From contig JAYJMM010000022.1 in assembly GCA_037349105.1 (NCBI GenBank), forward strand, positions 806,001-870,000: a stretch of 64,000 nt of DNA, given 5' to 3'. The first letter of the stretch is position 1, and every line of letters starts with the position of its first letter. The notes beneath the pieces are model-generated. The model was given only the letters and a program-made list of their open reading frames with translations, made no database searches and had not been told where the DNA came from. The translations under genes and the position numbers were made by a program. This stretch comes from Limnomonas spitsbergensis. Taxonomy: Eukaryota > Chlorophyta > Chlorophyceae > Chlamydomonadales. Positions 13,837 through 32,004 of the stretch are shown here, piece after piece.

Positions 13837-13899
13837 TGTCACACTATATTACCGTATACGTGACAGAACCGTTGGAGCCGCCACTAGCGGCCACGGAGC

Positions 13900-13920
13900 C
13901 TCCGCAGCTTCTCTGCGGAG
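13900..13920 (+). promoter_or_regulatory. Conserved hairpin in A
   Basis: CTCCGCAG, five bases, CTGCGGAG. The diverged copy 2 keeps the same stem at 50,628-50,648, which points to a function in the terminal repeat, perhaps in RNA structure. Confidence 0.6.
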
Positions 13921-14037
13921 TCTCCGGGTTTGAGCTGAGACCTAGAAACCCGCTTACGCAGGGTGATTTGACAGATTCTACCGTACTCTGAATTGGGCCT
14001 GCCGGGTCCCTGTATCCCGGCAATTGCCTAATCTAGT

Positions 14038-14061
14038 TACTTCGTCCCTTTCTAAAGGACA
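14038..14061 (+). promoter_or_regulatory. Self-priming arm, likely 5' end of the transcript
   Basis: These 24 bases inside A1 are perfectly complementary to 14,475-14,498 just after A1. In Tf1-type elements the first bases of the mRNA pair with the primer-binding site and prime reverse transcription. By analogy the transcript would start near here. In A2 the arm has one T-to-C change. Confidence 0.65.
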
Positions 14062-14474
14062 GACCTCTATTGTAACAAGCCTCGGCCGTCATCAGTGTAT
14101 GAGACCATCAGCGCTCCAATAAGTCAGTACCTCTACACAAGTCAAGACTAGTTCAGCCTCAGTCGAACTAGCTGGAGGCAAGTACCCAGTAAAGAGAACC
14201 GAGGCACTGCAGAAGAAGAAGTACGCAGTCTACGCCTCGGCTACTCCGCCGCGAGTCGCGCGGTAAGTGCCCCTTAACATAGCCCTGCTGGATCGCGCCC
14301 AGACGGCCAGAAGGCCTACGCTACCATAGTCAATTGCTAGACATACAAACATCCGACTCTGCTGCTTGACTCGCTGAGCACTCGCAGCCAGTGTGTAGTC
14401 ACTGAGTCTGCCCGTAGGCGTCCGTCACTGCCGTGAGGAAAGAAGTCCGCCACGGACCTGAAGCGCACATCGCG

Positions 14475-14498
14475 TGTCCTTTAGAAAGGGACGAAGTA
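14475..14498 (+). promoter_or_regulatory. Putative primer-binding site (self-primed)
   Basis: TGTCCTTTAGAAAGGGACGA and the next four bases lie directly after A1, where a primer-binding site is expected, and pair with 14,038-14,061. I see no match here to a tRNA 3' end. Copy 2 has its own matching pair. Confidence 0.65.
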
Positions 14499-15243
14499 GA
14501 TCTAGCCTGATCAGCCTGATTTGCCAATTCCTGCTAAAGGTGCTTGTGCAGCGGAATTGGAATTTTGTTTGCATGCAAACGACCTTGGAAAGTGTTTGAT
14601 CTGCACTTTGCTGTGGTAATCTCCAGAGAGAGATTGCCAAGTTAAACCCTGAGAATCATTAAGCGTGGCAGCTTAGTGTTGTAGTCCAGGAGAGGCTTGA
14701 AGATCTGGCTGAGGATTTATACACCCAGCGGATAATTACCTGTGTGACTGCAGATTGTGATCAGGTGGATCCAATCTTTCATCATTGACAGAAGTGAACT
14801 TGTGGATAGAGTATCCAAGTTTGAAATTTTGTGGGTGTACCAAAGGATCCCCGTAGGACCGCAGAGAGGAACGGACACTACGCAAGAGGATACCCCCGCG
14901 CAGGACGCGAGACATCCAAGCGGGACGTGTGCCATCTAGAAGCAGCCCAGCCAGCAAAGGTGGGAGGGGCTAAAAAGGGCGAAGGAGGATTCCGCCAGAT
15001 TAAAAATTAGCAAGCAGAAAAAAGGGCGAAGGAGGATTCCGCCAGAGTAAAATTAGTGAGCAGAAAAGCAGAAAGGCGAGGCCTATCCTGCGTAATTGCT
15101 GTACCTGCCGTCCAGTCTTGACTTGCAGATCCTCACCAGATTGCAGTAGGAACAAGGGGCAGAAGCCTAACGTTAGCAGATTTTTGTAGGGGGTGTCGCC
15201 AGCACACCTGCATGACCGTGCGGTTCGTAAAGTGCTTGTGGAA
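14499..15243 (+). other. 5' leader of copy 1
   Basis: Non-coding leader. It starts with CCTGATCAGCCTGAT, which copy 2 shares, and includes a ~50-bp direct repeat (about 14,973-15,070) built on AAGGGCGAAGGAGGATTCCG. Confidence 0.6.
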
Positions 15244-15831: not shown

Positions 15832-15855
15832 AGTATACTTGCAGAAGTCACGCGC

Positions 15856-18800
15856 ATGGAAGCGGAGATCCAGACGGCGGGAACCAGGCAGGTCCCGCAG
15901 AGCAGCAGAAAACCACAGGAAAAGTCAGCTGTACCGGTGGGAAAGCCGTGGGCTGACCTAATATCTGAGGAGGAGCTGCCTGAGCCGATGCAAGAAGAGA
16001 AGGAGCGGCAGCCAGTGACAGAACTGCGCCCAAGACAGCCAATGCGACCACGCAAGGTGCTGGTTAAAAGAGGGGTGGGATCCACAGTCTACGGGACGCC
16101 GCTGTCCAAGTTTGCGCCCAGTGTGGGCAGACCTGTGCAGACACCCAAGGAGGGATCTAGCAACCAGAGGCAGGCAGGCAGCTGGGAACAGCCAAGGCAG
16201 CAAAGTCAGGAGCCACCCAGGGGAGCCGATGAATGCAACAGGGGAGCACAGCAGGAGCGGCAAGGCCAAGAGCCGCCCAGGGGGCAGGCAGACAGCTGGG
16301 AACAGCCAAGGCAGCAAAGCCAGGAGCCACCCAGGGGAACCAATGAATGCGGCAGGGGAGCACAGCAGGATCGGCAAAGCCAGGAACCGCCCAGGGGGCA
16401 GGCAGGACCAGGCAGAGCACATCCTTGGAGACCCGGGTCGAGCGACAGACCAAGCAGAAGTGAGACCGGGAGGCAGCCGCGCGACGGGAGTAGAAGCTCC
16501 GCAGGAAGAGCAGGCAGACAGCCGTCAAGGGATGATCAGGAGGACAATGACAACAGATTCGACAGATACCGTCCAGGACGCAGCCCGTCAGGAGGCAGCG
16601 GAGGTGGATATGGATCGCGCTCAGAATCACCGAATTCAGATCCAAGGGGAGCGGACAGGCGCAGGCCAAGAACCAGGCAGGAGTCCAGCGACCAAGAAAT
16701 GAAGAGAATCGACAGGGAGCAGGCGAGAGTGACCCTGCAGATGCAGCAACAGATGGTCCTGCAGCTGACAGGGGTGGCCAAGGTCACCAAGATCCCAGCC
16801 ATCCAAGGCAACGTGCCAGTCCTGGATATGTCGCACCCAGGTGCAGTTGCAGCCAGGAAATATTGCCAGGCGTGTGGATACTGGGGATCGCACAACAGGC
16901 TGGCAATGTCAGATGACCAGCCAGCGCTGGCTGTGGTGGCCGGTGAAATAGCTGGATCATGCCAGTCGCCGTCAGCTATGACGTTGCTGATCAAGTCGCT
17001 GGTCAAGCTGTGGGACAGCAAGCCGGCCAGCATGGGGCCACTAATGGCAGCCATCAGGGCAGCGCCCCATGCAGGAAACAGAATTGCCAGAGAGGTGGAA
17101 CGGATCGGGCAGCAATGGATCGCCCCAGCAGAGGGGCAGGGTTGCGAGGCCTCGCTGCTCACTTTGTGGATCAGGGTGGTCCAGGCGGAAGTGGGAAAAC
17201 CAACTTCTGAGGAGAGGACAGCCATCACCAACCTCAGGCTAGGAGTAAAGACTACTCTAGACCCGGACGTCAAGCCAGAGAAGACGGTGGAAGCATTTGC
17301 TCACAGAGTGCTGACAACGGCAGAGTTGCTGCAGATCTCAAGGGATGCAGTAGATCACTTCGGCAGAAGCCACTCTGTCTCGCGCATGTTCCACGACGGA
17401 CTCCCGGCTGTTGCTAGAGCCAAGCTGAGCAAGTTCGTTATGACGGTGCCAGGGTACCTCAGCATGAATGATGAAGACCAGATCGCAGTACTCACACAGC
17501 AGGTGGTGCTGTGGGAGAGGTTTGCCCTGGAAATGGGTGACCTGGGAGGAACCGGCTTCAGGCAAATGACCAACAGCGGGCCTAGCCAGGGAGATGCACA
17601 GCCCAACAGGGGCAGAAAAGAGAGAACGGGACAGTGGGAGATGCGAACACGCCTTGAAGGAGTAGTGCACCCCGCAGGCTCAGCAGCAGTACCACAGTTG
17701 CGGGTGGATGGTAAACCCAGAGGAGTTACCTGGGCGGACCAAACAGGGACAGCAAATTACAGCGCAGAGGGCGCCCTGGGAGCAGCCAAGGCATGCTACC
17801 AGTGTGGTAGCACGGCGCACTTGGCCAGGGACTGCAGGACGCCCAGGGCCAGGGATGAGCGCATGCCTATGCCCCTGGTTACAGACATCACACCTGGACC
17901 GGCCAGACAGCCGCAACAGCAGTATCCGCCGCAACAGCAGTATCCGCCGCAACAGCAGTATCCGCAGCAACAGCAGTACCCTCTACCGCCAAGGCCGCAG
18001 CAGGGACAGGCTGCAGGCAGGCCGTATGAACGGAATCAGAACAATAGGCAGTATCCAAGGCCTGGGCCTAGCCAGGGGGGTCAGGCGCAGCAGGCGGCCC
18101 ACGTGTCGCATCTCAGCAATGCAACGGTGCAGGCTGAGCCAGAAGGCTGGCACCAGACCATGGCAGAGATGCTCAGCGAGTCCGTGGCACTCATGACGCA
18201 GGTTGGGCTGGTACCCAAGCCTGCGGGTTTCAAACAGGCGGTTCATAACGCCCGTCCTAAGTCGTTTATGCCAGAACCTTTTCAGGAGGAGGAACCAGTG
18301 CCAGGATTCCTGGAACCTTCCTCCAGGAAGGGGGCAAAGAGGCTGGTATTGAGTAAACTAGCTGATGATATGTCCGACATCCGCCTACAGGTGTTCAAGC
18401 TGAACGAGAGACTCTCAGCACTGTCTTTCACCACGATGCCAATGGGAGCAGACAACTACAACTACACGGGTGAGACCAGTAACACCAGGCCAGAGAGTAG
18501 AACGATGACAGCTGCACCCCAGCTGCAGTATTTCAAAAATGACAGAAGCAACTTGGAGCAGTGCGTGGGACTTATGGTCAAAGGGAAGGTCCTGGTGGCG
18601 CAGAAAGCCCTCATGGACTCAGCATGCACGTGCCATGTCATCACTGTCAATATTGCAGAGCAATTAGTTGCCATGGGGGCGGAGCTGGTGCGTACGGATG
18701 AGAAGATACGTACCACAGACAATGCAGGGGCAGATCTGTATGGAGTGCTGTTCATTTATGTGGTGTATGGATATGGCGGGCCCAATGCCATTATGGAGCC

Positions 18801-21132
18801 CACGGTGGTCAGGGTCGTTAAGACGCCACCAGACGCATATGAGCACCTGGTAGGGAACCCGGAGTTCCTCAAGTATAACGGGGTATTAGAGGCAGCAGGA
18901 AGACTGACCTTACGCCCCAGAGAGGGCTCACAGAGGGCGCAAGGGGTCAAGGACCTTACGCTGCCACTAATGCGGGCATCTCCAGCAGGGGGGTATCAGG
19001 CAGCAGCAGTGGCGTGGGCAGGAATCCAGTGTGGATTCGCAGAAAGAGAGGGGTGGCCCGCTGCAACAGTTGAGGCAGAGCACGAGCCGCTCTTACAGCA
19101 TGCCATGGCCACACGCGCAGGTGCCGCTATGAGAACTGGACAGGACGCAGGACCGGGCAACACGGAACACCCCAGGCTTCAAAGACACATGCTGGTGCCG
19201 ATCGAGGCAGCACAGGCAGAGGCCAACGCAGCAGCCTCAGAGGAGGTGACCAGAGCGCGCAGAGCCGCAGGAGTCTCTGACAAGGATAGAGAGCTCATCA
19301 GGAGCTGCTTGCCAGCATGCCCCAGCCACCCGTGCGCCTTGTGCGGGAAGCCAGCCATGCACTCGTCAGAAGAGTGCGAGAGGAGGATTCAGGATCTCTC
19401 GCGGATCCCAGGGACAGCGCCTGCGGTGCAAGTAGCACCGCCTGTCGCAAAGCAGAGGGGATACGGCACAGCCGCAGCTGACAGAGCTGCACAAGTAAAA
19501 TCAGTGTCGAGCGCCAAGGTACAAGTGCCCAGCAGGGGCGAGCAGGCGCAAAAGCAGCAGCTGCAAGGGCAGCCACAGGTGGCAGGGCCGAGTGCGCAAC
19601 AGGCAAGCGGCGGCGCTGGCAGGCAGGCGCAAAAGCAGCAGCTGCAAGAGCAGCCACAGGTGGCAGGGCCGAGTGCGCAACAAGCAAGCGGCGGCGCTGG
19701 CAGGCAGGCGCAAAAGCAGCAGCTGCAAGGGCAGCCAAAGGTGGCAAGGCCCACTGCGCAACAAGCAAGCGGCAGCGCTGGCGAAGCGCAGGAAGAAGAG
19801 ATGGAAGAGGAGGAGGAGGAGTGCAGCGTCGAAAGGGTTCCAGAGCCAGGGACCAGCAGTCAAGACAGACACATCGGCAGGCTGACCGGGCGAATTGACG
19901 GGCTGGAAAAAGCTCTCAAGTGGAGAGAAAACCAGATGTGGAAGCAGGCGGCAGGAATCGTCGAGTACCTAGGAGGCCAGCTGGGCAGGTGGAAGAGCAT
20001 CCATGATGCTCAGCAAGCCATGGCAGAGGTCCATCAGCAGTACATCCTGCGTGCAGATGAGCTGACCAAGCTGCAAGAAGCCCTAGGAACACAGCACGTG
20101 GGGGGGCTGCCAAACCACGGGCAGCCGCTCCCAGTTGCAATAGACCCAGAGACGGCAGAATGCTTCAGGAAAATGCTTCAGACCCCGTCTCCGATATTAG
20201 ACGTAGAGGGCGAGAATTCCGACCAGGGGGAGCCGCAGGGAGAAGAGCAACAGGCCGCGGATCAGCAGGAAGCTAAGAGCAACGACTCCAGCGACTCAGG
20301 GAACAGAAGACTCCGACAGCGCAGCAGAAGCGCGCAAAGGGCCATCAGTGGGGAGCGCCACGGGGTGGTGCCCACACCGGAAGCCAGGGCCCAACGGCAG
20401 GGTATGGCGCAGCGCAGCACCAGCGAGGAGCGGGGCAGGGACCGCAGGCGGCAGTCTCCCGAAAGGGACCGCAGGCACCAGTCACCCAGCAGGGAACAGC
20501 CCAGGGGCAGGTCCAGGGAGCGGCGACCAGAGGAGTTTGCCAGGCCATACAGGCAGGGGCCGGGGCACCAGAGAGGCCCAGGCCTGAGTCCGCCGGGCAG
20601 GGCCCCGGCAGGAGGCAGTGGGATGGCAGAGCCAAAACGCAATCTAGGACCCCGCCATGGTGGAGCCTGCTACAGGTGCGGCCAGCTAGGGCACTTTGCC
20701 AACGAATGCACCAACCCTGAGCAAGCCGTACAAACAGGCGACAGGCCAGGAGCACCTGCAGGCCCAGCACGGGGCTATGGGGCCAGAGGGCCTGGCAGAA
20801 GCCAGGACGCCCCCGAGGGGAACCGGCGCCGGAACTTCGAGACTGCTATGGGGACGCCCCGCGAAGGGGACCGCCAGCAGGCAGCAGTGGGCTCAAGCGC
20901 GTGGCCAGGACCGCCGGAGCGACAGGAAACAACAGGCCAGGGCGAACAACCAAGGTGGGGTGGGACAGGAAACCACACGTGTTTCATGACCAGCCACATG
21001 GGGTTTAGCCAGGACAGGGGTGCCAGCCAGGCTGAGGTCAACCAAGCAGCACCAGTTCAGGTGACTCCCCAAAGGGTGCCAGAAGGGCAGGTGGCCAGGC
21101 AGGTAAACCACTGGACAATGGCAGGCAGGTAA
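15856..21132 (+). CDS. ORF1, giant Gag-protease protein (1,758 aa)
   Basis: The protein would build the particle and cleave it. Residues 1-290 are disordered with a 38-residue repeat (two copies near 16,180-16,400). About 300-560 is a Gag capsid-like region shared with copy 2 (IPAIQGNVPVLDMS, HFGRSHSVSRMF). A zinc knuckle CYQCGSTAHLARDC starts at 647, followed by a QQQYPP repeat. A retropepsin-like segment, LMDSACTCHVIT, has its aspartate at 921, with Ser-Ala replacing the usual T/S-G. A second Cys-His motif, CALCGKPAMHSSEEC, starts at 1160. Three 27-residue repeats and an acidic coiled-coil region follow, then an Arg/Ser-rich part and another knuckle, CYRCGQLGHFANEC, at 1605. It ends at TAA inside a 26-bp duplication. 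The length is far above that of usual Gag proteins. Confidence 0.85.
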   Translation: MEAEIQTAGTRQVPQSSRKPQEKSAVPVGKPWADLISEEELPEPMQEEKERQPVTELRPRQPMRPRKVLVKRGVGSTVYGTPLSKFAPSVGRPVQTPKEGSSNQRQAGSWEQPRQQSQEPPRGADECNRGAQQERQGQEPPRGQADSWEQPRQQSQEPPRGTNECGRGAQQDRQSQEPPRGQAGPGRAHPWRPGSSDRPSRSETGRQPRDGSRSSAGRAGRQPSRDDQEDNDNRFDRYRPGRSPSGGSGGGYGSRSESPNSDPRGADRRRPRTRQESSDQEMKRIDREQARVTLQMQQQMVLQLTGVAKVTKIPAIQGNVPVLDMSHPGAVAARKYCQACGYWGSHNRLAMSDDQPALAVVAGEIAGSCQSPSAMTLLIKSLVKLWDSKPASMGPLMAAIRAAPHAGNRIAREVERIGQQWIAPAEGQGCEASLLTLWIRVVQAEVGKPTSEERTAITNLRLGVKTTLDPDVKPEKTVEAFAHRVLTTAELLQISRDAVDHFGRSHSVSRMFHDGLPAVARAKLSKFVMTVPGYLSMNDEDQIAVLTQQVVLWERFALEMGDLGGTGFRQMTNSGPSQGDAQPNRGRKERTGQWEMRTRLEGVVHPAGSAAVPQLRVDGKPRGVTWADQTGTANYSAEGALGAAKACYQCGSTAHLARDCRTPRARDERMPMPLVTDITPGPARQPQQQYPPQQQYPPQQQYPQQQQYPLPPRPQQGQAAGRPYERNQNNRQYPRPGPSQGGQAQQAAHVSHLSNATVQAEPEGWHQTMAEMLSESVALMTQVGLVPKPAGFKQAVHNARPKSFMPEPFQEEEPVPGFLEPSSRKGAKRLVLSKLADDMSDIRLQVFKLNERLSALSFTTMPMGADNYNYTGETSNTRPESRTMTAAPQLQYFKNDRSNLEQCVGLMVKGKVLVAQKALMDSACTCHVITVNIAEQLVAMGAELVRTDEKIRTTDNAGADLYGVLFIYVVYGYGGPNAIMEPTVVRVVKTPPDAYEHLVGNPEFLKYNGVLEAAGRLTLRPREGSQRAQGVKDLTLPLMRASPAGGYQAAAVAWAGIQCGFAEREGWPAATVEAEHEPLLQHAMATRAGAAMRTGQDAGPGNTEHPRLQRHMLVPIEAAQAEANAAASEEVTRARRAAGVSDKDRELIRSCLPACPSHPCALCGKPAMHSSEECERRIQDLSRIPGTAPAVQVAPPVAKQRGYGTAAADRAAQVKSVSSAKVQVPSRGEQAQKQQLQGQPQVAGPSAQQASGGAGRQAQKQQLQEQPQVAGPSAQQASGGAGRQAQKQQLQGQPKVARPTAQQASGSAGEAQEEEMEEEEEECSVERVPEPGTSSQDRHIGRLTGRIDGLEKALKWRENQMWKQAAGIVEYLGGQLGRWKSIHDAQQAMAEVHQQYILRADELTKLQEALGTQHVGGLPNHGQPLPVAIDPETAECFRKMLQTPSPILDVEGENSDQGEPQGEEQQAADQQEAKSNDSSDSGNRRLRQRSRSAQRAISGERHGVVPTPEARAQRQGMAQRSTSEERGRDRRRQSPERDRRHQSPSREQPRGRSRERRPEEFARPYRQGPGHQRGPGLSPPGRAPAGGSGMAEPKRNLGPRHGGACYRCGQLGHFANECTNPEQAVQTGDRPGAPAGPARGYGARGPGRSQDAPEGNRRRNFETAMGTPREGDRQQAAVGSSAWPGPPERQETTGQGEQPRWGGTGNHTCFMTSHMGFSQDRGASQAEVNQAAPVQVTPQRVPEGQVARQVNHWTMAGR

Positions 21133-21150
21133 ACCACTGGACAATGGCAG
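21096..21150 (+). repeat. 26-bp tandem duplication at the ORF1/ORF2 junction
   Basis: The word CAGGCAGGTAAACCACTGGA and the next nine bases occur at 21,096 and 21,122. In copy 2 the single equivalent segment reads QIHHWRVAVEA at the start of ORF2, and copy 1 reads QVNHWTMAVEA in the second unit. Removing one unit joins ORF1 and ORF2 in one frame, so the duplication probably split a longer polyprotein. Confidence 0.75.
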
Positions 21151-24100
21151 TAGAGGCGTTGGCCATGAACCATTATGGGACCATGCCAGCAGGGTCGGCC
21201 AGATCTGTGACACATGCGATGGGATTATTGAGGGACCTCCAGCGGAGGGGGTGCCCAGCCCCGTGTGAAGGTTGGCCGTGTATTTTGCAGAGGTTCCTCG
21301 ACGTGGAGTGGGACAAGTACAATGCACAGTGGGATGAGTTTGAGAGACGCGAGCAGGGGGCATTGCCCCAGCACAGCGTAGACGGGTGGGAGACCGGTTC
21401 CAGTTGGGACGGCTCCAACCTTTCAGAAGGAGGTTATGAACCTGAATATGAACCTCGGGAACCATCACCATTGCGTGAGGCAGAGTTTGCCGTGTTATGT
21501 CCAGGTACCCCGGAGGGCAAGCGCGACACAGGAAGAGGGGTAGCAGGAGCAGCCACCGGGAGGGCCCCAGCCAGCGAGCGCGGTCGCCGCCCAGGGGCCA
21601 GGGGGGCCGCGGCAATGAGCCAGCAGGACAACCCAGCGGGGCCCGTTAGGACCCATAAAGGCACCACCTCTCGGTGCAATGCTTGGGGAGAAGTACACGA
21701 GGACGAAGAGACGCAGCGCAGCAGTGAGAGGGGCGGGAGGTCCGACGCAGGGGGCGAGGACAGCCAGCTTGACCAGTCCATCAGCAGAGAGAGATCATAC
21801 AGCAGAGAGCGGGCCTACATAGAGCCGTATCCGCCAACTTCGCCAGAGAGCGAGCCCTTTGTGCAGTACTATCGCCTGGGGGAAGAGATGCCAGAGGCGT
21901 CCACCTCCATGGCCATGCTCACCATGCCAGCAGATTGCTTGGACGGGCTGTGTAGGTTGCAAAACCACAGGCTCCAGGAAGGCGGCGTACAGATGTGCGT
22001 GAACAGGCGGGCAGCCAGTCAGGCGGTGGCTCGGATGATCTTCCCGGGGGATGCGGTGACTGCGGTGTTACTGTTAGCAGCGCTCAAAGGATACATACAG
22101 CCCAGCACAAACATACCAGTTTACATGGCGCGCGGGTGGGGACGGCACCCCATCTACGTATGCTGCGTACATGAAGTGGTGACTCTGGCAGTCGCGGAGG
22201 GCATCACAGCGGTGGAGGCGGCAGCCAGGGTGCACCCGGACGTGCCCAACAGCGCGCGCACAGAGGGGCTGTGGCAGGGTGCGCAGCCCGGGTTCATGCG
22301 CTCACCATGGGCGGAGGACTGCGTGCGTCAGCTGATGGGGAGCGTAGCTCTCAGAGACCGCGCATTCTATGTGCCAGTGCAAGCCATGGGCGAGTACGCA
22401 GGGTTTGAGGGGACAGCAGTGCAAACCCCAGCCGAGGCAGGACTGTGCCATCCGGGCAGGCCAAGGCGGTGTGAGGCGACCATTGAGGCGTCCATCGTCA
22501 TTCCCAGGATGGTCGCAGGACAGGCCGTGCCATGGGGGACGGCACCCGGGGAGGCCAGGTCAGCCATCCCGGTCCAGCAGCTAGTAACTTACTACTATGA
22601 GGAGGTGGAAGATGGGGAGGTACCTGTTTCAGCAGCATGGATCCACATGCACGCCACTCAGGACGACAAGCCCGTCTACCTGTTCGCAAGGCACCGAGAC
22701 AACGTGGCAATCACTAAATGCGCGTCGGTGGATGAGGCAGAGTTCCACGCCTACACATACGCCAGGGGCGCAGATCCAACAGTGTGGACGCTCATGCTTC
22801 TGGCGCTGCAGCGAGTCTTGCTCCCAGGACAACTGTCAGCGGCCATGCGGCACGTGTGGGGTGTAGAGGGGCAGTGGGCTCCTATTGACATAACAGCCTG
22901 CCCCACCTGGCCTTACGGACCACAGAGAACGCCAGCATCAGGGGCCATGTGGGAAGGAGAGGAGGAGCTTGCGCGCTCGCCGTTCGCAGTAGAACGACTG
23001 GAGGCATGCGTACTCCAGTGGGTGCGTCATGAGAGGAGAGCGTGGCACGACAACAGGGCCAGCAGCGTGCTACCCTATTGGCAGGCAGACGTCATAACGA
23101 CGCAGTTGTGGAGACAGGCGCACCCGGCAGGGGTGCGCACGCTGCACCCCCTGTTCAGAGGAGCAGGGGAGGTCGGCATTGAGGAGGAATTGGAGGCCCT
23201 GAGGAACCAGCCAAGGATAGGACACTGGCTGGTGGGCAGGCGCGGTCCCTTCTCGGAGGAGCCTGCGGCCGCCACCAACGGTCCTACCCAGGAAGAGGAG
23301 CCAGAATGGACCCAGGCAGCATTCGTCACCACATTCGGGGCAGTTGCATCCTCATGGGAATGGCTGGAGCCCGCGGAAGGAATGGGAGTGTCAGCACTGG
23401 AATCTGAGCCTAGGGGACGGGCAGAGCCCCAGTCACCCCGATACAGTACCGGCGCTCCGCTTGCAGAGGACCTGGACAGCAGGAACCCAGGGTACAGCGA
23501 CGACCTTTCGGAGGGGCCGCCACCACTGGTGGAGATTACGGGGTCAGAAGAGGAGTGGTACGAGGGAGGAGCCATGCCCCCGGACCAGGATAGCGCCGCC
23601 AGAGCAGAGGCTCAGGATGCAGAAGGAGATAATATGCCATCCAACAGAGGCCCAGGACCAGGGAGTCCGGGGCACGACCTCGAGGAAGACCTGACACAGC
23701 TTCGTCACGAATGGATGCGCAACGTCGTTCAGGAGCAAGCAGCAATGGAGGAGCGCAGAGCCAGGAGAGCAGCGATAGAGCGCAGTAACGAGATAACACG
23801 GGACGAGAGGACGTACCGGGCCGCAGTCAGGGGCAGCCCGCGGCAGGCAGCAGACCAGTGCGCGCGCGCGATTCAAAGGAGGCAGCAGCCAGCGGGGCTG
23901 GCAGCAGGCGCCCAGGGGACGCCCAGATCAGCCAGCCAGTGCAGACAGCGGCAAGGGAGCCCTGGGGTGACCCGGCATCATACAGTACGGGGTGCTGGAT
24001 GGCAGTGCTCAGGAATTTCGTAGATCAGCTGGACGTGCTGAGAAGGCAGGACATGGGGCAGCAAGAGGCAGGCCAGGAGGCTAGCCTGCTTTTCCGACTC

Positions 24101-24169
24101 AGAATGCTGCCACAGCCCGACCCTAACCCCAGGATGGGAGGTTACAGCAGGGCAATCAGAGATCTATAG
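21144..24169 (+). CDS. ORF2, conserved retroelement protein of unknown function
   Basis: The first frame is 959 aa (21,144-24,023). A frame change near 23,950 restores similarity to copy 2 up to a TAG at 24,167. I do not recognise the family. The part conserved with copy 2 lies at residues ~240-450: a DGLCRLQNH motif, a helix with AVARMIFPGDAVTAVLLLAALKGY, FMRSPWAEDCV, and a VPWG-PG-A-IP block. The N-terminus is acidic and Ser/Arg rich and the C-terminus acidic and coiled. There is no transmembrane segment, zinc motif or catalytic triad that I can name. Its place between Gag-protease and RT suggests a structural or regulatory polyprotein part. Confidence 0.6.
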
Positions 24170-25795
24170 GAGGAGTTGACGGAGAGGATATCAGCCCTTG
24201 GGGCAACAAGGGCCGGTGCAAGTGCTGCACAGCAGACTGCAGGCAGTCACAGCAGCCAGGCCCCAGGTGTGCAGCAGTCGCGGCCAGCAGATAGGGCCGG
24301 CGGAGCAGCTACTGCAGAACACAGCCACACCAGCAGCTGGTCGGCAGGCCAAGCAAGACAGGTGGCCAATGACAGGAGAGTCATGAGGCAGTACGGAGGA
24401 CCGGCAAGGGCCACGCGCGCAGGAGTCAGTGAGGCTGCGCAGCACACCACCCGCGGGCAGGAGCAACAGGCGCAAGACAGCAAGGGACGCGCCCCAGCAG
24501 CAAGGCAAGAGAGGCCCGGTGCAGCTTGGGCTGGCACAGCCGAGTTACAAGGCAAGAAGTCCAAAAAGGCCAGGCGACGCGCAGGAGCGACGCAGAGGAA
24601 AGCCGCGGAAAGGGACCACGGTATCAGGCCAGGCATGGACTGCCCAGGCCAACCTTCCAGGAGCTGCCAGGTGGACTTGGAGATAACATGGGAAGCGGAG
24701 CAGCAGAGGCCAGAGCAGAGTGCAGGGCCACGCAAACAATCTGCAGCGCACCAGCCGCAGGAGCCTACAAGACGGCTGCCATCCTGCAGGGGGCTCCTCA
24801 CTAGTACGGCTTTTAAGGGGTTCCTTATGGGGACGCTCCAGCTGGTGTTGGTATGGCTCCTGCTGTCCGTATGCATCCCGGGTGCGCGAGCCACAGGGCA
24901 GGGAGTGAGAGGAGGAGGATTTACAGCAGGCCAAGGAGCTTTTGTGTCCAGCCAGGAAGCCGCAACAAAGCTCACGTCAGGCTGGCTGCGCCCACCAGCA
25001 GTCAGCCCTATGGGGGGCGCCAGCAGGACAAGGGGCGAGTACAGCCAGAGGGAAGACTGGCAGCGCGGCAACAGCACAGGCGAGGAAGCGCCGCCCGCGG
25101 AGGACAACCTGCAGGCGGCGGAGATGGTCGACATGTTCCAGCCGGGGGGAGTAGTCGAACCACCCTCGGAGTACGTCAAGACTAAGGAGGGGTGGCTGCT
25201 GGGCCAGCACCCTGACTTCACGGCGGACCAGCAGAAGACCCTCGAGCAGAGCCTCAAGAACCGCCAAGGAGCGTTCGCTTACTCCATGGAGGACTTACCC
25301 GGCTACTGTGGCACGCAGGGTGAGTTTAGACTGGCGTTGGAAGACGAGGTCAGTTCATGCTTTCAGAAGTCCAGGGATATGCCACCGCCTAAGGCGGCGA
25401 TTTTTAAGGAAAAGTGTCAGCCGATGATTGAGGCAGGCATCATAGTCAAGGTGCCCCAGGGAGGGCCCATTAAGTTTGCAGCCAACTCAGTGGTAGCGGC
25501 TAAGAAGAGTGCAGAGACAGGGGAGTGGACAGATCACCGTATAGCGCACGATATGCGCAGGTTAAACCTGCGAACGGCTAAGCAGGAATTTGTCATCCCC
25601 AGGATGGAGACTATTTTTCAGAATCTGGGAACTGCCAAGATATTCAGCAAGGTTGATCTCCGGTCGGGGTTCATGCAGATCCCTATAAAAGTCGAGGACC
25701 AGCCTAAGACAGCTTTCTGGATGGGTCCTGAGCTTTGGATGTACACAAAGCTCAACTTCGGGCTGCGCAATGGACCGCCTTTTTCCAGCGTATGA
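24170..25795 (+). CDS. ORF3, pol N-terminal part with hydrophobic segment
   Basis: This frame has no ATG at its start and continues upstream through TAG 24,167, so it was probably translated as part of a longer product. The first ~210 residues are Gln/Ala/Arg-rich. A hydrophobic stretch at 24,815-24,890, with LQLVLVWLLLSVCIPGARA, looks like a signal peptide with a small-residue cleavage site, and copy 2 has the same feature. A spacer leads to the RT fingers (PMIEAGIIVKVPQGGPIKF) and palm motif 1-2 (FSKVDLRSGFMQIPI). The frame then ends at 25,795 because copy 1 lacks one T in a T run near 25,785 that copy 2 keeps as an in-frame FFQRMMEE. Confidence 0.75.
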   Translation, partial: EELTERISALGATRAGASAAQQTAGSHSSQAPGVQQSRPADRAGGAATAEHSHTSSWSAGQARQVANDRRVMRQYGGPARATRAGVSEAAQHTTRGQEQQAQDSKGRAPAARQERPGAAWAGTAELQGKKSKKARRRAGATQRKAAERDHGIRPGMDCPGQPSRSCQVDLEITWEAEQQRPEQSAGPRKQSAAHQPQEPTRRLPSCRGLLTSTAFKGFLMGTLQLVLVWLLLSVCIPGARATGQGVRGGGFTAGQGAFVSSQEAATKLTSGWLRPPAVSPMGGASRTRGEYSQREDWQRGNSTGEEAPPAEDNLQAAEMVDMFQPGGVVEPPSEYVKTKEGWLLGQHPDFTADQQKTLEQSLKNRQGAFAYSMEDLPGYCGTQGEFRLALEDEVSSCFQKSRDMPPPKAAIFKEKCQPMIEAGIIVKVPQGGPIKFAANSVVAAKKSAETGEWTDHRIAHDMRRLNLRTAKQEFVIPRMETIFQNLGTAKIFSKVDLRSGFMQIPIKVEDQPKTAFWMGPELWMYTKLNFGLRNGPPFSSV

Positions 25796-28700
25796 TGGAA
25801 GAGGAGATTGCCAGGGCAGGATTGAGTGCTTTTTGCGTGGCATTTATTGACGATCTGCTAGTGTACAGCGATACACCGGCAGACCACATCAGGCATGTGG
25901 AGCTGATGCTGGACATGCTCCACAGTGTAGGGTTGAGGGCGCATCCCGACAAGTCGCTGTTTGGGTGTGCAACAGTTGAGTACTTGGGGCACAATGTGTC
26001 TGCCCAGGGGCTCACGCCGCATGCGGCTAAGATTGCAGCGGTTATGGCGTTGCCAGAACCCGCGTCGGTGAAAAACATCCAGGAGGTCATGGGGTTCTTG
26101 AACTTCTACCGGTGCTACATCCCGGATTTCTCGAAAAAGGCGGCATGCATCAACGCATTGCTGGTCAAGGGGATCCCGTTTGTGTGGGGGCCAGAGCAGT
26201 CGCAGGCGTTCCAGTTGATCAAAACAGAGATGTGCGAGGGCGGAAGAGTCCTGCGCAGACCAGATTACAGTGGGACAGGGCCAGACGGCAAGGGGCCGCC
26301 AAGGCCGTTCTTATTGTACACAGATTTCTCTAAGCAGGGCATAGGCGCCGTGCTAGGGCAGTGTGATGACAGTGGGCGGGAGTATATGGTGGCATGCACG
26401 TCCAGATCCCTGAACAAGAGCGAGAGGAACTATTCCTCGTTCCAGGGGGAGATGCTGGCAGCAGTGTATGCGGCACGCACATACCGCCACATGCTGTTTG
26501 GGTGCAAGGTGCATCTCATCACTGACCATGAGCCGCTCACTTACCTCATGGACAATCAGACGTTGGTGGGCCAGCACGCTAGGTGGGCTCTCATGCTCCA
26601 GGAGCTGGACATTACCATTGTCCATCGCTCAGGAGCATGCCACCAGAATGCAGACATCCCGTCCAGGTCACCTCTCGCTTCCTCAGCCGACCGCACGGGG
26701 GCCAGGCTTGATACAGCTGCCCCCGAACCAGCAGTCCAGGGGGAGGCAAGTGGGAAGCAGGTAGCTTTGATCACAGGGTTGAGCAGAGTCAATCAGTGGC
26801 ATGCCGACCAGGTGGTGCGCATGGCGCAGGAGGGCAGAAGAAGAGTGCAGATACTGCGAGCTGCAGAGGCAGCTTGCGTGACAGCGCCGGTGGGGCAGGA
26901 GATATCCTCTGCCGCCACTGACGATGATGAGCAGGCGCAGCCCGTCAGTACGGCAGAACAGGCGTTCAGCAACAGGGAACGGGCCAGGACAATGATCAGT
27001 GATGTTCTTGCTGAACTGCCTCGGGTGACGCCCCCTCATTTACATGCAGGCCTGGACACAGCTTGCCTGTCGAGTGGGGCTGTGCGGGCCATGGAGACCG
27101 AGGGAGTCGTCCTTTTCGAGCCCTTTGGAGGTATGTGCTCAGGGCTGGAAATGGTGCTCAGGGCGGGTATCCCAGTGGTGCAGTACTTGTATGCTGATAT
27201 CAGTGAGGAAGTCAGAGAGATCGCAGGGGGTCGCCTGGTGCAGTTGCACAGGAGATACCCTCAGTTGTTTCCGGTCAAAGCGTTTGATAGGGCGTTCAGA
27301 GCGTTGCCCCAAGATGTGTATGCCATTACGGCGAAGCACCTCCAGGAGGCGGGCGCCCAGGAGGGGCGCCAGTGGTTCATGGTAGCAGGCTGGGAGTGCC
27401 AGGACCTCTCGTCAGCAGGCAAGGGGCGTGGGCTCGCGGGAGAGAGAAGCAAGTCTTTCTTCCCGTTAGTCAAGCTGTTGGGTACACTGCAGTTCCTGCA
27501 GGGGCCTAGGCCGCCAGCGTACCTGATTGAGAATGTGGCAATGCAATTGAATCAGAAAAGTGTGAAGGCCAGTGTTGAGGCCTTTCAGGAGGTGTGCAGG
27601 ATTCTGGGAACACCGGCGTTGTTTGACGCAGCACAGGTGGGGTCTTACGCCCACCGCACCCGCAACTATTGGGGGAATATCGCCCCTGCAGCAGATATCG
27701 AGTTTGTGATTCGTGCGTCAACCAGACCCCACGGGGGGATAGTAGACGACATTCTGGACAAGGGCAGCAAGGCCCAGATAGTTTCATGCCCTGACAATGG
27801 AGGGTACCGCATCAACGTAACAGGACAGCCCAGGAGGGTGCTGCCGTGTTTGATGGCCACGCCCTCCTCATATTCTTTTCGGAACGGGCAAAATGGGATG
27901 GTGTACAGACCCATGGGGGACTTGCAGGAGCCCAATGCAAACGAGCGTGAACGAGCCATGGGGTACGCTGTGGGGTCCACATTGCCGCGCCCAGACTTCC
28001 CAGAGGCGGCCAGGAGGGCAGCCTTGGGCAGGTGCATGGATTCGTGGGCACTAGGAGCATGGCGCAATGTGGCACTTGAGTGTGCTACAATCATACCAGA
28101 GGAATTGAAACGCAGAGCAAAGCTGCCAGGCCCGGACATGGATCCAGTGCTTGGTGCAACTTTAATGTCCAGCCACTACGCCCTTGCTACTGCAGGAAAC
28201 GCGTGCTCTGGCATCGGAGAGGCGGCAGCGTCATACAGGCAGTGCCTAGGAGAATCTGCTGCGGCAGACTGGGCCGACGCAGCGCAGGAACCAGGTGGGA
28301 ACACACCTGAGGAACAAGTTGAGGTTGAAATCGAGGTGGCCGGGGACACAGAGGGTGAGAAGGACCCGCCAGGATGTCCTGCAGGACCATCGGCCAGGGT
28401 TGATGTGTGGGCAGATGAACCTGTATTGAGGTTTCTCCGCGAGAAGACATATGTTCAGGGAACAGAGCTAGGAGAACAGACCAGAATACAGCGCAGAGCG
28501 GCGCCATTCCAGTGGGAATCAGAGAGGGGAGGAGTATTGATGAGACTCATGCCTGACGGTAGACGTTGTGTGGTGCCCAGGCCAGAGGACAAGCTTGCAG
28601 TGATCCAGACAGCCCATGCAGGAACGGGCCATTTTGGCAGCCACCGCACGGCTTTCATGGTCATGCAGCAACATTGGTGGCGGGGGCTTAGAGCAGCAGT

Positions 28701-30207
28701 CAAGAAGGCAGTGCAGGAATGCGGTGTGTGTGACAGGGCCAGGGCGTCCACGTTCAATCACATACAGCCCAACCTGCACCCACTACCCATTGAGGGGTTG
28801 TTTTTCCGGTGGGGAGTAGACCTGTGTGGTCCATTTACGACCACTTCCAGGGGCAATCGGTTTGTGATGGTTTGTGTGGAGCATTACTCCAAATGGGTGG
28901 AGTTGATCCCCATTCCAAGCAAGGCGTCTGATATGACGGCCTTGGCATTCTTTCAAAATGTTGTTGCACGATTCGGAGGATGCGCAGAAGTGGTGACAGA
29001 CCAGGGAACAGAGTTCCAGGGTGAATTTCAGGACATGTTGTTGGACTGCTTCATTGATCACCGCACCACTTCTGCCAACCATCCCCAGGCAGACGGGCTA
29101 TCAGAGAGGGCTGTCCAGACCCTCAAGGCAGGCCTACGCAAGTGCTGCGAGGAGGGCAGCAGCGACGAGTCCTGGGACAAGATGGTGCCCTGGGTGGCCC
29201 TAGGCTTCCGGTGCTCGCCGCAGCAAGCCACGCGCATGGCGCCGTACGAGGTGTTGTTCGGGCAGAGACCCACCTTTCCCTCCAGAGTGGGGGCGGACCT
29301 CTGGAACACAGCCAAGGTGGCAACAGCAGAAGAGGCAGCAGACCTGCTCTTGGCCAGAGTGGCCAGGATCAAAGAGGCGCTGCCAGTCGCGGGTGAGCAT
29401 CTGAAAATTGCGCAGCACCGCGACAAGCTGCGATATGCACGCATTCGTGGGGGAGGGTATGTCCCCCAGGTCAGGCGTTTTGCAGAGGGAGATTACGTGT
29501 ATGTAAAGTATTCATCAGAACGACGCAGCCTCGATCCCAAGGCCAGGCCTGAGATCCTAAGGGTGAAAACACTGGGGGCGACGGGAACCTTGGTTTTGGA
29601 GGGGGCAGATGGCCTCACCGTAACAGAGAATGCTGTCAATTGTTCTCCATGCCACTTGCCCAACCTCAGGGGAGTGGTTGATTTCAGCGGAACCAGACCC
29701 AACAACAGCCTGTCATGCGAGGTGTGCCAGCTGCCTGATCGCGGAGAGGTGATGCTTTTGTTTGATGCCTGCAATTCAGGTTGGCACATGGATTGCTTGG
29801 TGCCAGTACTCGAGAGGGTGCCTGAGGGCGAATGGTTGTGCCCAAAATGCACGCCTGATGACAAGGAAGCTGGGCCCGCTGCAATAGCAGGGCCCGCTAC
29901 AGAAGATCGCAGTTTGAAGGCCCAGGGGCGGCCGAGCCCAGCAGCCAGAGCGGCTGCCAGAACAGCCCAGGAGGCCAGTGTCATGGACAGGCCTGAGGTG
30001 GAAGTCATGGCCACCAACCCAGCAACAAGACAAATGGAGCGGGGCATCGCAAGACCAATGGCGAACGGGTTGTACGACATCTCGTACACCACTGGCCGGG
30101 GAGAGGCCAATGTAACCCCGAGAGCAGTTACAAGAAGGGCTAAGGTGGCCAAGGAAGCAGCAAGAGAAGAAGAGGAGTCAGCCCTTGAGGAGCTTACCGA
30201 GACCTAA
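25786..30207 (+). CDS. Pol: RT, RNase H, C5-MTase, integrase, PHD
   Basis: After the 1-base deletion the frame is open for about 1,475 codons. RT continues with the catalytic FIDDLLVYS (aspartates at 25,849-25,854) and the Ty3/gypsy thumb and connection. RNase H follows with LYTDFSKQGIGAVLG, EMLAAVYAARTYR, TDHEPLTYL and HRSGACHQNADIPSR. A C5 methyltransferase domain (27,028-28,080) comes next, then integrase and a PHD finger. The last ~80 residues are Ala/Glu/Arg-rich, ending at TAA. Gypsy elements normally have integrase directly after RNase H, so the methyltransferase is an insertion between two pol domains. Because of the RT frameshift this copy would not make active pol, unless the missing base is a sequencing error. 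Confidence 0.88.
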   Translation, partial: QRMMEEEIARAGLSAFCVAFIDDLLVYSDTPADHIRHVELMLDMLHSVGLRAHPDKSLFGCATVEYLGHNVSAQGLTPHAAKIAAVMALPEPASVKNIQEVMGFLNFYRCYIPDFSKKAACINALLVKGIPFVWGPEQSQAFQLIKTEMCEGGRVLRRPDYSGTGPDGKGPPRPFLLYTDFSKQGIGAVLGQCDDSGREYMVACTSRSLNKSERNYSSFQGEMLAAVYAARTYRHMLFGCKVHLITDHEPLTYLMDNQTLVGQHARWALMLQELDITIVHRSGACHQNADIPSRSPLASSADRTGARLDTAAPEPAVQGEASGKQVALITGLSRVNQWHADQVVRMAQEGRRRVQILRAAEAACVTAPVGQEISSAATDDDEQAQPVSTAEQAFSNRERARTMISDVLAELPRVTPPHLHAGLDTACLSSGAVRAMETEGVVLFEPFGGMCSGLEMVLRAGIPVVQYLYADISEEVREIAGGRLVQLHRRYPQLFPVKAFDRAFRALPQDVYAITAKHLQEAGAQEGRQWFMVAGWECQDLSSAGKGRGLAGERSKSFFPLVKLLGTLQFLQGPRPPAYLIENVAMQLNQKSVKASVEAFQEVCRILGTPALFDAAQVGSYAHRTRNYWGNIAPAADIEFVIRASTRPHGGIVDDILDKGSKAQIVSCPDNGGYRINVTGQPRRVLPCLMATPSSYSFRNGQNGMVYRPMGDLQEPNANERERAMGYAVGSTLPRPDFPEAARRAALGRCMDSWALGAWRNVALECATIIPEELKRRAKLPGPDMDPVLGATLMSSHYALATAGNACSGIGEAAASYRQCLGESAAADWADAAQEPGGNTPEEQVEVEIEVAGDTEGEKDPPGCPAGPSARVDVWADEPVLRFLREKTYVQGTELGEQTRIQRRAAPFQWESERGGVLMRLMPDGRRCVVPRPEDKLAVIQTAHAGTGHFGSHRTAFMVMQQHWWRGLRAAVKKAVQECGVCDRARASTFNHIQPNLHPLPIEGLFFRWGVDLCGPFTTTSRGNRFVMVCVEHYSKWVELIPIPSKASDMTALAFFQNVVARFGGCAEVVTDQGTEFQGEFQDMLLDCFIDHRTTSANHPQADGLSERAVQTLKAGLRKCCEEGSSDESWDKMVPWVALGFRCSPQQATRMAPYEVLFGQRPTFPSRVGADLWNTAKVATAEEAADLLLARVARIKEALPVAGEHLKIAQHRDKLRYARIRGGGYVPQVRRFAEGDYVYVKYSSERRSLDPKARPEILRVKTLGATGTLVLEGADGLTVTENAVNCSPCHLPNLRGVVDFSGTRPNNSLSCEVCQLPDRGEVMLLFDACNSGWHMDCLVPVLERVPEGEWLCPKCTPDDKEAGPAAIAGPATEDRSLKAQGRPSPAARAAARTAQEASVMDRPEVEVMATNPATRQMERGIARPMANGLYDISYTTGRGEANVTPRAVTRRAKVAKEAAREEEESALEELTET
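27028..28080 (+). other. C5 cytosine methyltransferase domain in pol
   Basis: Motif I is VVLFEPFGGMCSGLEMVLRA. Motif IV is AGWECQDLSSAGKGRGL with the candidate catalytic Cys at 27,397-27,399; the usual Pro before it is Glu. Motif VI is LIENVAMQ (Glu at 27,529). A motif VIII-like YAHRTRNYWGN and a motif X-like NERERAMGYAVGST follow. Copy 2 has the same set, with ECH in place of ECQ. The domain would place methyl groups on cytosine in DNA. Retroelement-borne cytosine methyltransferases have, as I recall, been reported in dinoflagellates and a charophyte alga; I cannot check whether this is the same lineage. Confidence 0.85.
28470..29860 (+). other. Integrase and PHD-finger region of pol
   Basis: The zinc domain shows HAGTGH ... 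CGVCDRA (28,612-28,733). The catalytic core has WGVDLCGPF (Asp 28,819), VTDQGTEFQ (Asp 28,999) and GLSERAVQ (Glu 29,104), with 34 residues between the last two. A small beta-rich C-terminal domain ends in NCSPCHLPNL. A PHD-like finger follows at 29,716-29,850: CEVC, LLFDACNSGWHMDC, WLCPKC. In the third fragment the same place reads LLCDAC, so copy 1 has lost one zinc ligand (F at 29,761). Gypsy integrases often end in a chromodomain; a PHD finger here would likewise suit chromatin targeting. Confidence 0.85.
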
Positions 30208-30861
30208 GGCCGAGCCCAGAGCGGCAAGGCCGCTGAGCACGTGACGTCACCCACGCCGTAACCGGCAAGGAGCGGGCAGGCGCCTACAGAGCAGAAAATG
30301 CAGACGCAGCGCGGCTTGTCCTAGTACCCGGCAGGCAGTGGGCCGGCAGCCAGTGGACCGAAGACGGAAGATGCAGGAGTGGAGTTAAAGCTATCGCAGC
30401 AACATAGTGAAAATTTGTTTCTCAAACACCATAGCAGCAAGGCTACGGTAGTACATATGTTATGACAATATTGAGCGAGGAGAATTAGTCAACTCGGACT
30501 ATGATAACACAGCCAAGGGCGGATCACGCTGCTACGGCGCACATTTCCTGTGGCCATTGAAGATCAGGCGGCTATGGCGCAGTGGGGCGAGAGCAGCGGT
30601 TGTTCTTAGCTTGACCTGATAACTTTAAAAATTTCTCTGTTTGCTAGCCAGTAGTGGGCTGAACAGCTTGGATTTGTAGGATTCTGCGCATAGCGCTTCA
30701 GCTGAGACTCGGTGGATTTTTTTTAGTTCTGTTTGAAGAAGGCCTGAACCAGGCAGATTTGCTGAGACGATTTGAGCTTCTACGTACATATTTTTCCAGA
30801 AGTTTCTTTCAGTACCGACCCCTTTTTCCGGCTCCCAACGCATGCCTTTAGGCTTAACGCT
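30208..30861 (+). other. 3' untranslated region of copy 1
   Basis: No coding signal. A CACGTGACGTCAC near 30,238 combines the same two motifs as the duplicated unit at 10,263-10,702. Confidence 0.5.
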
Positions 30862-30879
30862 GAGGAGCGGGGGGGCGAG
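30862..30879 (+). promoter_or_regulatory. Candidate polypurine tract
   Basis: GAGGAGCGGGGGGGCGAG is almost all purine and lies immediately before B1. A plus-strand primer here would make B-A, not A, the repeat at the ends of the linear cDNA. Confidence 0.5.
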
Positions 30880-31119
30880 TGAAGTAGTGGGGGCGGTACC
30901 CTCAAGACAGGGACACCCAGGCCTTACCCCTAGGCAGAGAGACTTCCTGCTAGGGCTGAACCTTACAGTAGCCAGTTACAGCTTCTGTCTGAAGTACAAG
31001 GAGTCTGTGTGTACGGTAATGTACCGTGTTTATGAGTAGAAGGACACCTCTCTAAGGCGCCTTTACCGGAGATTCCGGAGTTTACCATATTAGCACGTTT
31101 ACTGCTTTATGGTGCGACA
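30875..31119 (+). repeat. Split repeat B1
   Basis: 245 bp, GCGAGTGAAGTAGTGGGGGC to GGTGCGACA. It is identical to B2 (31,760-32,004) except for one base. There is no copy of B next to A1. Confidence 0.9.
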
Positions 31120-31125
31120 GCTGTC
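31116..31125 (+). promoter_or_regulatory. Palindrome at the B1/A2 junction
   Basis: GACAGCTGTC is a perfect 10-bp palindrome. It is formed by the B terminus (GACA), two bases (GC) and the A terminus (TGTC), the same termini seen at the outer ends of the element. It looks like a circle junction of two element ends. Confidence 0.6.
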
Positions 31126-31762
31126 ACAGTATATTACCGTATACGTGACAGAACCGTTGGAGCCGCCACTAGCGGCCACGGAGCCTCCGCAGCTTCTCTG
31201 CGGAGTCTCCGGGTTTGAGCTGAGACCTAGAAACCCGCTTACGCAGGGTGATTTGACAGATTCTACCGTACTCTGAATTGGGCCTGCCGGGTCCCTGTAT
31301 CCCGGCAATTGCCTAATCTAGTTACCTCGTCCCTTTCTAAAGGACAGACCTCTATTGTAACAAGCCTCGGCCGTCATCAGTGTATGAGACCATCAGCGCT
31401 CCAATAAGTCAGTACCTCTACACAAGTCAAGACTAGTTCAGCCTCAGTCGAACTAGCTGGAGACAAGTACCCAGTAAAGAGAACCGAGGCACTGCAGAAG
31501 AAGAAGTACGCAGTCTACGCCTCGGCTAGTACTCCGCCGCGAGTCGCGCGGTAAGTGCCCCTTAACATAGCCCTGCTGGATCGCGCCCAGACGGCCAGAA
31601 GGCCTACGCTACCATAGTCAATTGCTAGACATACAAACATCCGACTCTGCTGCTTGACTCGCTGAGCACTCGCAGCCAGTGTGTAGTCACTGAGTCTGCC
31701 CGTGGGCGTCCGTCACTGCCGTGAGGAAAGAAGTCCGCCACGGACCTGAAGCGCACATCGCG
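31122..31762 (+). repeat. Split repeat A2
   Basis: 641 bp, matching A1 with about four substitutions and one 3-base indel. It is followed directly by B2, sharing GCG at the joint. Confidence 0.9.
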
Positions 31763-32004
31763 AGTGAAGTAGTGGGGGCGGTACCCTCAAGACAGGGACA
31801 CCCAGGCCTTACCCCTAGGCAGAGAGACTTCCTGCTAGGGCTGAACCTTACAGTAGCCAGTTACAGCTCCTGTCTGAAGTACAAGGAGTCTGTGTGTACG
31901 GTAATGTACCGTGTTTATGAGTAGAAGGACACCTCTCTAAGGCGCCTTTACCGGAGATTCCGGAGTTTACCATATTAGCACGTTTACTGCTTTATGGTGC
32001 GACA
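31760..32004 (+). repeat. Split repeat B2 (3' end of copy 1)
   Basis: Second copy of B. It ends GTGCGACA and is followed by CTTT, the second half of the target duplication. Confidence 0.9.

Follow-up and report, generated by a model that had tools for sequence, protein, structure and literature searches.

A giant Ty3/gypsy-type retrotransposon that seems to be cut out from the middle of its own end repeat

How does a retroelement with a DDE integrase come to lie between two ends that are not copies of each other? The question is raised by the element at positions 13837–32004 of a stretch of 64,000 nucleotides from the green alga Limnomonas spitsbergensis (contig JAYJMM010000022.1, positions 806,001 to 870,000), which is called the window here. 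Between two copies of a CTTT target duplication, this element reads A1-internal-B1-GC-A2-B2. We propose, with a probability of about 0.78, that it is a giant Ty3/gypsy-type long terminal repeat (LTR) retrotransposon whose integrase attachment site lies inside the LTR, and not at the ends of the complementary DNA (cDNA). The element seems to be cut out by its integrase from the middle of its own end repeat, the DNA ends being simply joined. Its parts are as follows.

13833..13836: target duplication CTTT, left copy
13837..14474, + strand: repeat A1 (638 bp), starting with TGTCAC and preceded by flanking DNA, with no B
14038..14061, + strand: 24 nt within A1, exact complement of the site after A1; candidate RNA 5′ end and self-primer
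14475–30877: internal region
14475..14498, + strand: putative primer-binding site (TGTCC...), adjoining A1
30862..30877, + strand: polypurine tract GAGGAGCGGGGGGGCG, adjoining B1; candidate plus-strand start
30878..31119, + strand: repeat B1 (242 bp), with the 3′ terminus GTGCGACA
31120..31121, + strand: GC spacer at the B1/A2 boundary, flanked by CA and TG; proposed integrase cut site CA^GC on both strands
31122..31762, + strand: repeat A2 (641 bp)
31763..32004, + strand: repeat B2 (242 bp); at its start, the putative cDNA end that was joined to the A2 end
32005..32008: target duplication CTTT, right copy

In this copy A2 is 98.9% identical to A1 and longer by 3 bp, and B2 differs from B1 by one mismatch. 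A preliminary description of the locus had already placed A1 directly before the internal region without an intervening B, and had taken the outer TGTCAC and the CTTT duplication for real insertion ends; the coordinates above agree on both points. Its B1 of 245 bp must be shortened to 242 bp, the 3 bp at issue (GCG) being common by chance to the A end and the purine tract. We place the start of B at AGTG because some copies carry T or TG at the A/B joint (a slash marks a joint). The GC between B1 and A2 was absent from that description. In the sense of reverse transcription the LTR is B-GC-A, and inside it the genomic ends TGTCAC and GCGACA lie opposite each other, separated by the GC.

The layout was claimed to be a family trait, and copies were checked with their flanks for the A-internal-B-A-B order and for 4-bp duplications. 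Searches with A and with B, in each of which 40 candidates were scored, gave 60 loci, many of them overlapping, to which short stretches were added. From these a first set of 13 pairs of 5′ and 3′ ends was assembled by contig, strand and spacing (9–29 kb), on contigs C22, C36, C82, C86, C95, C97, C99, C102, C112, C113, C120, C123 and C124. All 13 have A at the left end and B-GC-A-B at the right end, C112 and C99 bearing one further A-B unit there, and all 13 carry exact 4-bp duplications. The C113 copy contains a nested A-B belonging to the family of a second, diverged element of the window (copy 2, see below). For the second set, the 3′ and 5′ ends of 20 further copies were taken from the list of reverse transcriptase (RT) places; 13 were chosen blind to their joint and seven after their joint had been listed (C16 twice, C26, C27, C35, C37 and the second C4 copy). 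The 3′ end could be parsed in 19 of the 20, C95 being rearranged after A2, and the 5′ end in 18, the A start lying outside the fetched stretch in two. Flank and never B stands upstream of A1 in all 18; 16 A1 starts of the first set are likewise preceded by flank, the primer site being within the locus for 14. C26 and C28 of the first set were identified by their A start, and their primer sites appear among the A/primer-site places listed below. Both ends were parsed in 17 second-set copies, and 16 of these have an exact 4-bp duplication; the exception, on C4, reads GGCA/AGCA (3 of 4 bases). Over all copies with both ends read, exact duplications thus number 29 of 30. The same order was found wherever both ends of a full copy were readable, and no copy with ordinary BA...BA or AB...AB ends was found among the loci read. 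Because the order recurs at many separate places, the layout as read is neither chance nor a single assembly error, and it does behave as a family trait.

Incomplete and other forms also occur: solo A-B, A-internal-B, B-A-B-A-B-ended and rearranged copies. Exact duplications flank three of four solo A-B copies (C123, C84 and C19; C39 has GGAT/GGGT) as well as a solo A-B nested in locus L026 (GGTA/GGTA). Only A-internal-B is present in C26 (GTGT/GTGT) and in C28 (TGTC/TGTC, with a shortened purine tract), and locus L008 on C112 is a short A-internal-B with TGTA/TGTA.

The junctions between the repeats differ in constancy. Pattern scans demanding exact flanks, which undercount, gave 288 A/B joints, 490 B/A junctions and 324 A/primer-site joints, and each tally rests on the first 100 listed places. 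At A/B, 77 joints are flush and the others carry T (7), TG (6), TGT (1), A (8) or a 13-mer (1); inserts are therefore present in 23 of 100 A/B joints versus 0 of 100 A/primer-site joints (Fisher p 6e-8). The B/A junctions read GC in 99 cases and GT in one, with no change in length, and a further one, at L065, has AC. The inserts T, TG and TGT each match the start of the primer site, as though one to three primer bases had stayed attached, and a parallel is the primer base left over at retroviral circle joints. The 19 parsed copies of the second set, a non-random sample, have 11 flush joints, 3 with A, 2 with T, 2 with TG and 1 with TGT; among the 12 parsed copies picked blind, 9 are flush, 2 have A and 1 has T. 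Copies only 3–6 differences apart bear T, A or no insert, and a group of eight copies whose A2 repeats differ by no more than 13 comprises 5 flush joints, 2 with A and 1 with T. A label test of joint type against descent gave 0.18, which is not significant; on these alignments, joint type does not track descent. Within copies B1 and B2 differ on average by 0.42 (n = 19), versus 10.45 between copies, and A1 and A2 by 0.88 (n = 17), versus 48.8. Since A/B varies while the neighbouring junctions keep their length, and since B2 matches B1 and A2 matches A1 within copies, both repeats appear to be renewed, and the A/B joint re-formed, in each cycle.

The ends brought together at this joint can be predicted from the priming sites. 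The site after A1 is complementary to the interior of A over 24 nt in copy 1 (the window element) and 23 nt in copy 2, where both pairing partners have diverged and complementarity is retained; the longest complementarity in 500 shuffles of the 46 nt after A1 was 11 nt (copy 1 site). Because the complementarity holds in two diverged copies, reverse transcription is probably self-primed in the manner of Tf1, in which the primer site complements the RNA's own 5′ end, the 5′ end here being a candidate. A purine tract precedes B1 in the parsed copies. From self-priming and the standard scheme, the linear cDNA is therefore predicted to be B-GC-A-internal-B-GC-A, with termini AGTG...CGCG. The preliminary description had arrived at B-A-internal-B-A, which the positions of the primer site and purine tract support. 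The integrated element does not terminate at these predicted cDNA ends; its A2/B2 joint is those two ends joined.

The proteins place the element among known classes. Four long frames are present in the window copy.

15856..21132, + strand: gag-like open frame with a CCHC zinc knuckle
21144..24023, + strand: 959-codon open frame, without a Pfam match, separating gag from RT
24176..25795, + strand: start of pol, with the first part of RT; frame broken in the window copy
25735..30207, + strand: rest of pol, with the RT end, RNase H, a C5 DNA-methylase-like domain, H2C2, rve DDE integrase and a PHD finger

The order RT, RNase H and then rve integrase is that of Ty3/gypsy pol, and the nearest proteins share these domains; the integrase catalytic spacing of the window copy is D-59-D-34-E. 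Also as in Ty3/gypsy elements, the target duplication is short and of constant length (4 bp), a putative primer site follows the 5′ repeat, and a candidate purine tract precedes the 3′ repeat. The outer ends, however, are A and B and not identical full LTRs. Its encoded RT, RNase H and DDE integrase make the window element one of Ty3/gypsy type. The preliminary description had named a DDE integrase; the rve core is indeed present, and none of the four frames of the window copy listed above gives a tyrosine recombinase match at E up to 5. Since all 119 RT places that were scored genome-wide share 95–100% identity with the window protein, and some lie in single open frames of about 5,200 codons, the family as assembled is large and recently active. 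Among the best 120 of 181 related proteins, the named eukaryotic relatives come from Haematococcus, Pleodorina and Chlamydomonas (chlorophyte algae), and one relative is named as a bacterial metagenome-assembled genome. Viral contigs scanned for relatives with flanks yielded none. Motif IV of C5 methylases is normally PCQ; in the methylase-like domain (window 25735–30207, around residues 540–650) it reads ECQ, as it does in the majority line of ten aligned relatives.

Several routes could lead to such an insertion, and the position of the cut bears on the choice between them. A free two-LTR circle may be the normal precursor, its ends joined at A/B and its B-GC-A opened by integrase with a bias toward the junction adjacent to the primer site. 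This would yield the same product and the same A/B joint, and foamy-virus and human immunodeficiency virus type 1 (HIV-1) integrases cut such junctions in vitro in the parts of the reports compared, cited below. However, the junctions are identical over the whole repeat, so that unbiased opening predicts an equal number of A-B-A-internal-B copies. In the listed places on contigs C3–C34, counted with exact-match patterns that again undercount, none of 78 A/primer-site ends has this form, which would show an A/B joint 0.7–1.1 kb upstream, and B-GC-A lies just upstream of 1 of these 78 ends (on C9) versus 52 of 77 A/B joints. Of 28 RT places checked on C4–C35, 18 have B-GC-A downstream, the lone upstream match being the 3′ end of a neighbouring copy. 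Two A/primer-site places on C112 (L050 and L056, inverted, 3.5 kb apart) have internal-B-GC upstream and represent internal-B-A-internal, not A-B-A-internal. By these counts almost all cuts would lie in the left repeat. We therefore reject a symmetric two-LTR circle opened at random, and a biased circle, which requires an extra source of bias, seems to us possible but doubtful. The two-repeat circle opened at B/A that was first envisaged is thus retained as a product joined end to end and opened at B/A, but not as a free symmetric circle.

The whole A-internal-B-A-B order, B2 included, might instead be copied through RNA, with a transcript that reaches the end of B2 and a layout that is simply inherited. 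The same layout in each subfamily read at both ends and the 77 flush joints among the 100 listed would suit this. But B1 and B2 of one copy hardly differ, whereas those of different copies do, A/B changes among near-identical copies while A/primer-site and B/A are constant in length, and B2 is followed by flank alone, with no primer site; within-copy repeat identity and the changing joint make such copying unlikely. A tyrosine recombinase inserting circular cDNA, as in PAT/Ngaro-type elements, would be in keeping with the A1-internal-B1-A2-B2 layout shared with Ngaro (PMC8547959; here and below, statements refer to the parts of the cited papers compared). We reject this route as very improbable, since the four long frames searched for such a recombinase in the window copy yielded none. 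An integrase core is present, and the 4-bp duplications in 29 of 30 copies, of which a tyrosine recombinase makes none (PMC4157794), tell against it unless a recombinase acted in trans together with another cutting step. Unequal exchange probably does occur in the family, which has B-A-B-A-B ends (C112, C99), solo A-B and long A-B arrays. That assembly error or later recombination between ordinary repeats made the layout is nevertheless scarcely conceivable, given that the order recurs at 30 places, near-identical recent copies among them, that 29 of these places each have an exact 4-bp duplication of their own, and that no BA...BA or AB...AB copy occurs among the loci read.

Cutting inside the LTR, which we prefer, would proceed as follows. 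The RNA would start near position 200 of A1, and its first ~24 nt would fold onto the site after A1 and prime minus-strand DNA. Ordinary strand transfers and a plus-strand start at the purine tract before B1 would then give linear B-GC-A-internal-B-GC-A. At the B-GC-A junction of the left LTR, integrase would cut after CA on both strands, so that one 2-bp spacer would give both processed ends, each with a 5′-GC overhang. Both ends would be inserted with a 4-bp stagger; the duplications and the ends are seen in the genome, and the enzyme step is what we infer from them. The real cDNA ends (A-end and B-start) are, as strongly indicated, joined by host end joining to give A-internal-B-GC-A/B. Joining might precede the cut, by way of a two-LTR circle, or follow it, with a chromosomal gap being bridged. 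We favour the cut coming first because, after the second strand transfer, the left LTR would be double-stranded after ~0.9 kb of synthesis, versus about 17 kb for the right LTR. The left LTR would then be cut while plus-strand synthesis across the very long internal region still runs, an order that would also account for joints to internal breakpoints. The geometry of B-GC-A fits an integrase cut after CA on both strands, and the B-GC endings of L114 and L131/L132 agree.

These endings come from odd copies. B-starts not preceded by G number 146, and 20 were fetched, non-randomly, from 100 listed: 19 of the 22 that follow C, and one that follows A. At L116 the internal region breaks and is joined directly to the B-start, and L117, L127 and L133 resemble it, the last few bases before B being unaligned. 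L008, found independently, consists of A, about 0.9 kb of internal region and a 48-nt fold-back, followed by the B-start. L131/L132 (opposite strands, a common flank, one event) and L114 read B-GC/B-start and hence agree with a filled-in CA^GC cut. L122 has TGTCC, presumably its own primer site, before B and after a different A end. The remaining cases are variant A ends (L120, L121, L129), inverted A pieces (L118, L119), altered purine tracts (L124–L126, L128, L130), an internal break upstream of B-GC-A (L123) and an upstream stretch without placement (L115).

Several points weigh against the proposed cut inside the LTR. Every step of the mechanism is read from genomic ends alone, all of them from one genome, and the left bias is explained by the timing argument only; L131/L132 may reflect an occasional cut at the right junction. 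The extra A at 8 of the 100 listed A/B joints does not come from the primer site and needs untemplated addition, and the B/A spacer is not invariant (GT once, AC once in L065). The A-internal-B copies C26 and C28, with their exact duplications, could be one-LTR-circle cuts or products of later B1–B2 recombination, and later deletions could have produced the B-GC endings of L114 and L131/L132. The odd B-starts were found with a pattern demanding an intact B start, so their exactness is partly selection (L008 excepted), and the inverted pieces of L118 and L119 and the unplaced stretch of L115 are not accounted for by the model.

Some further observations concern individual loci. At L119 (C28:1179856), A runs to position 225, where the primer sequence ends, and is joined there to the reverse complement of the A end, followed by B; this is a possible trace of self-priming or could be a template switch, and as a single case it is not used as support. 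The inverted element pieces at the joints of L081 (C95), L118 (C26) and L008 (C112) look like fold-back products of aborted reverse transcription. L058, considered as a primer-cDNA fusion, was rejected, being an inverted A1-primer-site stretch. Oppositely oriented internal-B-GC-A-internal junctions, with one LTR between two internal regions, lie at C112:1876020 and C112:1879564. Three places 11,778 bp apart in C72:185576-210258 have internal-B-A-B with a common flank and are probably a recent segmental tandem duplication.

Copy 2 lies on the other strand of the window.

50051..50710, − strand: repeat A of copy 2 (660 bp); its own primer site, self-complementary over 23 nt, extends from 50050 downwards

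It starts with A and has no B upstream (TGTCAC at 50710, minus strand), as first described; its 3′ end is missing or rearranged within the window, and the layout seen there is that of the 5′ end only. Copy 2 spans 33358–50710 on the minus strand, and a matching element piece lies on the same strand at 62636–63057. Because the 3′ end is absent and this piece sits 12 kb off, copy 2 as assembled is broken or interrupted. A tandem array of its family on C15 has B-GC-A and A/B junctions as in the main family. Copy-2-family A units recur at multiples of about 885 bp in C15:1177455-1215327 and C18:107325-173591 (sample L112), and a 2.1-kb sample from the C15 array is head-to-tail A-B-GC. These arrays are LTR-derived satellites, possibly centromeric.

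Textbook integration uses both ends of a linear cDNA. In the window family, genomic ends and cDNA ends appear at different places of the sequence, so that each insertion would preserve a record of where integrase cut and of what became of the cDNA ends. With 288 A/B and 490 B/A matches in one genome, integrase use of a joined LTR-LTR junction becomes testable. Our results suggest that split direct repeats may arise without a tyrosine recombinase, and repeat layout alone is therefore unfit for classifying elements. Among known systems, bacterial circles of the IS3/IS911 type have a DDE enzyme that uses abutted ends with a short spacer, but these are DNA transposons, without reverse transcription. 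Tf1, Tj1 and sushi elements have ordinary LTRs at both ends. Tf1 and Tj1 show the self-priming signature, a primer site complementing their own RNA 5′ end (PMC4600332); sushi elements share this complementarity (PMC6317226), which spans 23–24 nt in the window family. Green-algal Ty3/gypsy-type elements with a DNA methylase domain resemble the window element in this domain, and the text compared says nothing of their repeat layout or integration (PMC6338049).

Ngaro, PAT and VIPER share the split direct repeats A1-internal-B1-A2-B2 but have a tyrosine recombinase and no target duplication (PMC8547959, PMC4157794), whereas the window element has a DDE integrase and 4-bp duplications. A gypsy element with this layout is KnitGypsy-Dnmt3 from Klebsormidium nitens (de Mendoza 2018, PMC5890265), to which a figure legend ascribes the repeat structure of DIRS elements, given in another legend as A-coding region-B-A-B. 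KnitGypsy-Dnmt3 likewise combines gypsy domains, a cytosine methyltransferase in Pol and, by that legend, DIRS-type repeats. The legend remark comes without duplications, joints or mechanism in the text compared, and the methyltransferase is Dnmt3-related, whereas the nearest named algal relatives of the window element are chlorophyte and its motif reads ECQ. In the open-access literature, this legend was the only earlier mention found of the layout with gypsy proteins; it makes the layout older than the present finding. Because the legend has the same layout and the proteins are ordinary gypsy plus extra domains, the new class suggested in the preliminary description is too strong a claim.

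The nearest parallels to the cut itself are retroviral. Prototype foamy-virus integrase cuts the two-LTR junction after CA on both strands, leaving 5′-AT overhangs (PMC1180852). As in B-GC-A, the junction is palindromic, with 2 bp between CA and TG, and the double cut leaves 2-nt 5′ overhangs; there, however, it lies between the two LTRs of a circle and a role in integration is proposed only (PMC1180852), whereas in the window family each LTR contains the junction, and the products of cutting it correspond to the genomic ends. HIV-1 integrase cuts the palindrome at the two-LTR junction in a restriction-like manner, in this case as purified enzyme on model DNA (PMC1905944). We lean towards a gypsy lineage, perhaps extending from streptophyte to chlorophyte algae, in which the integrase site lies in mid-LTR, integrase acts as a site-specific endonuclease on a ready-made junction, and the cDNA ends are left to host joining. 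If this is true, it would be a natural retroelement that relies on cutting a junction, as has been proposed for the two-LTR circles of retroviruses (PMC1180852). Such circles are considered a dead end (PMC5314604), and the integration route read here is thus one otherwise proposed, and doubted, for retroviruses.

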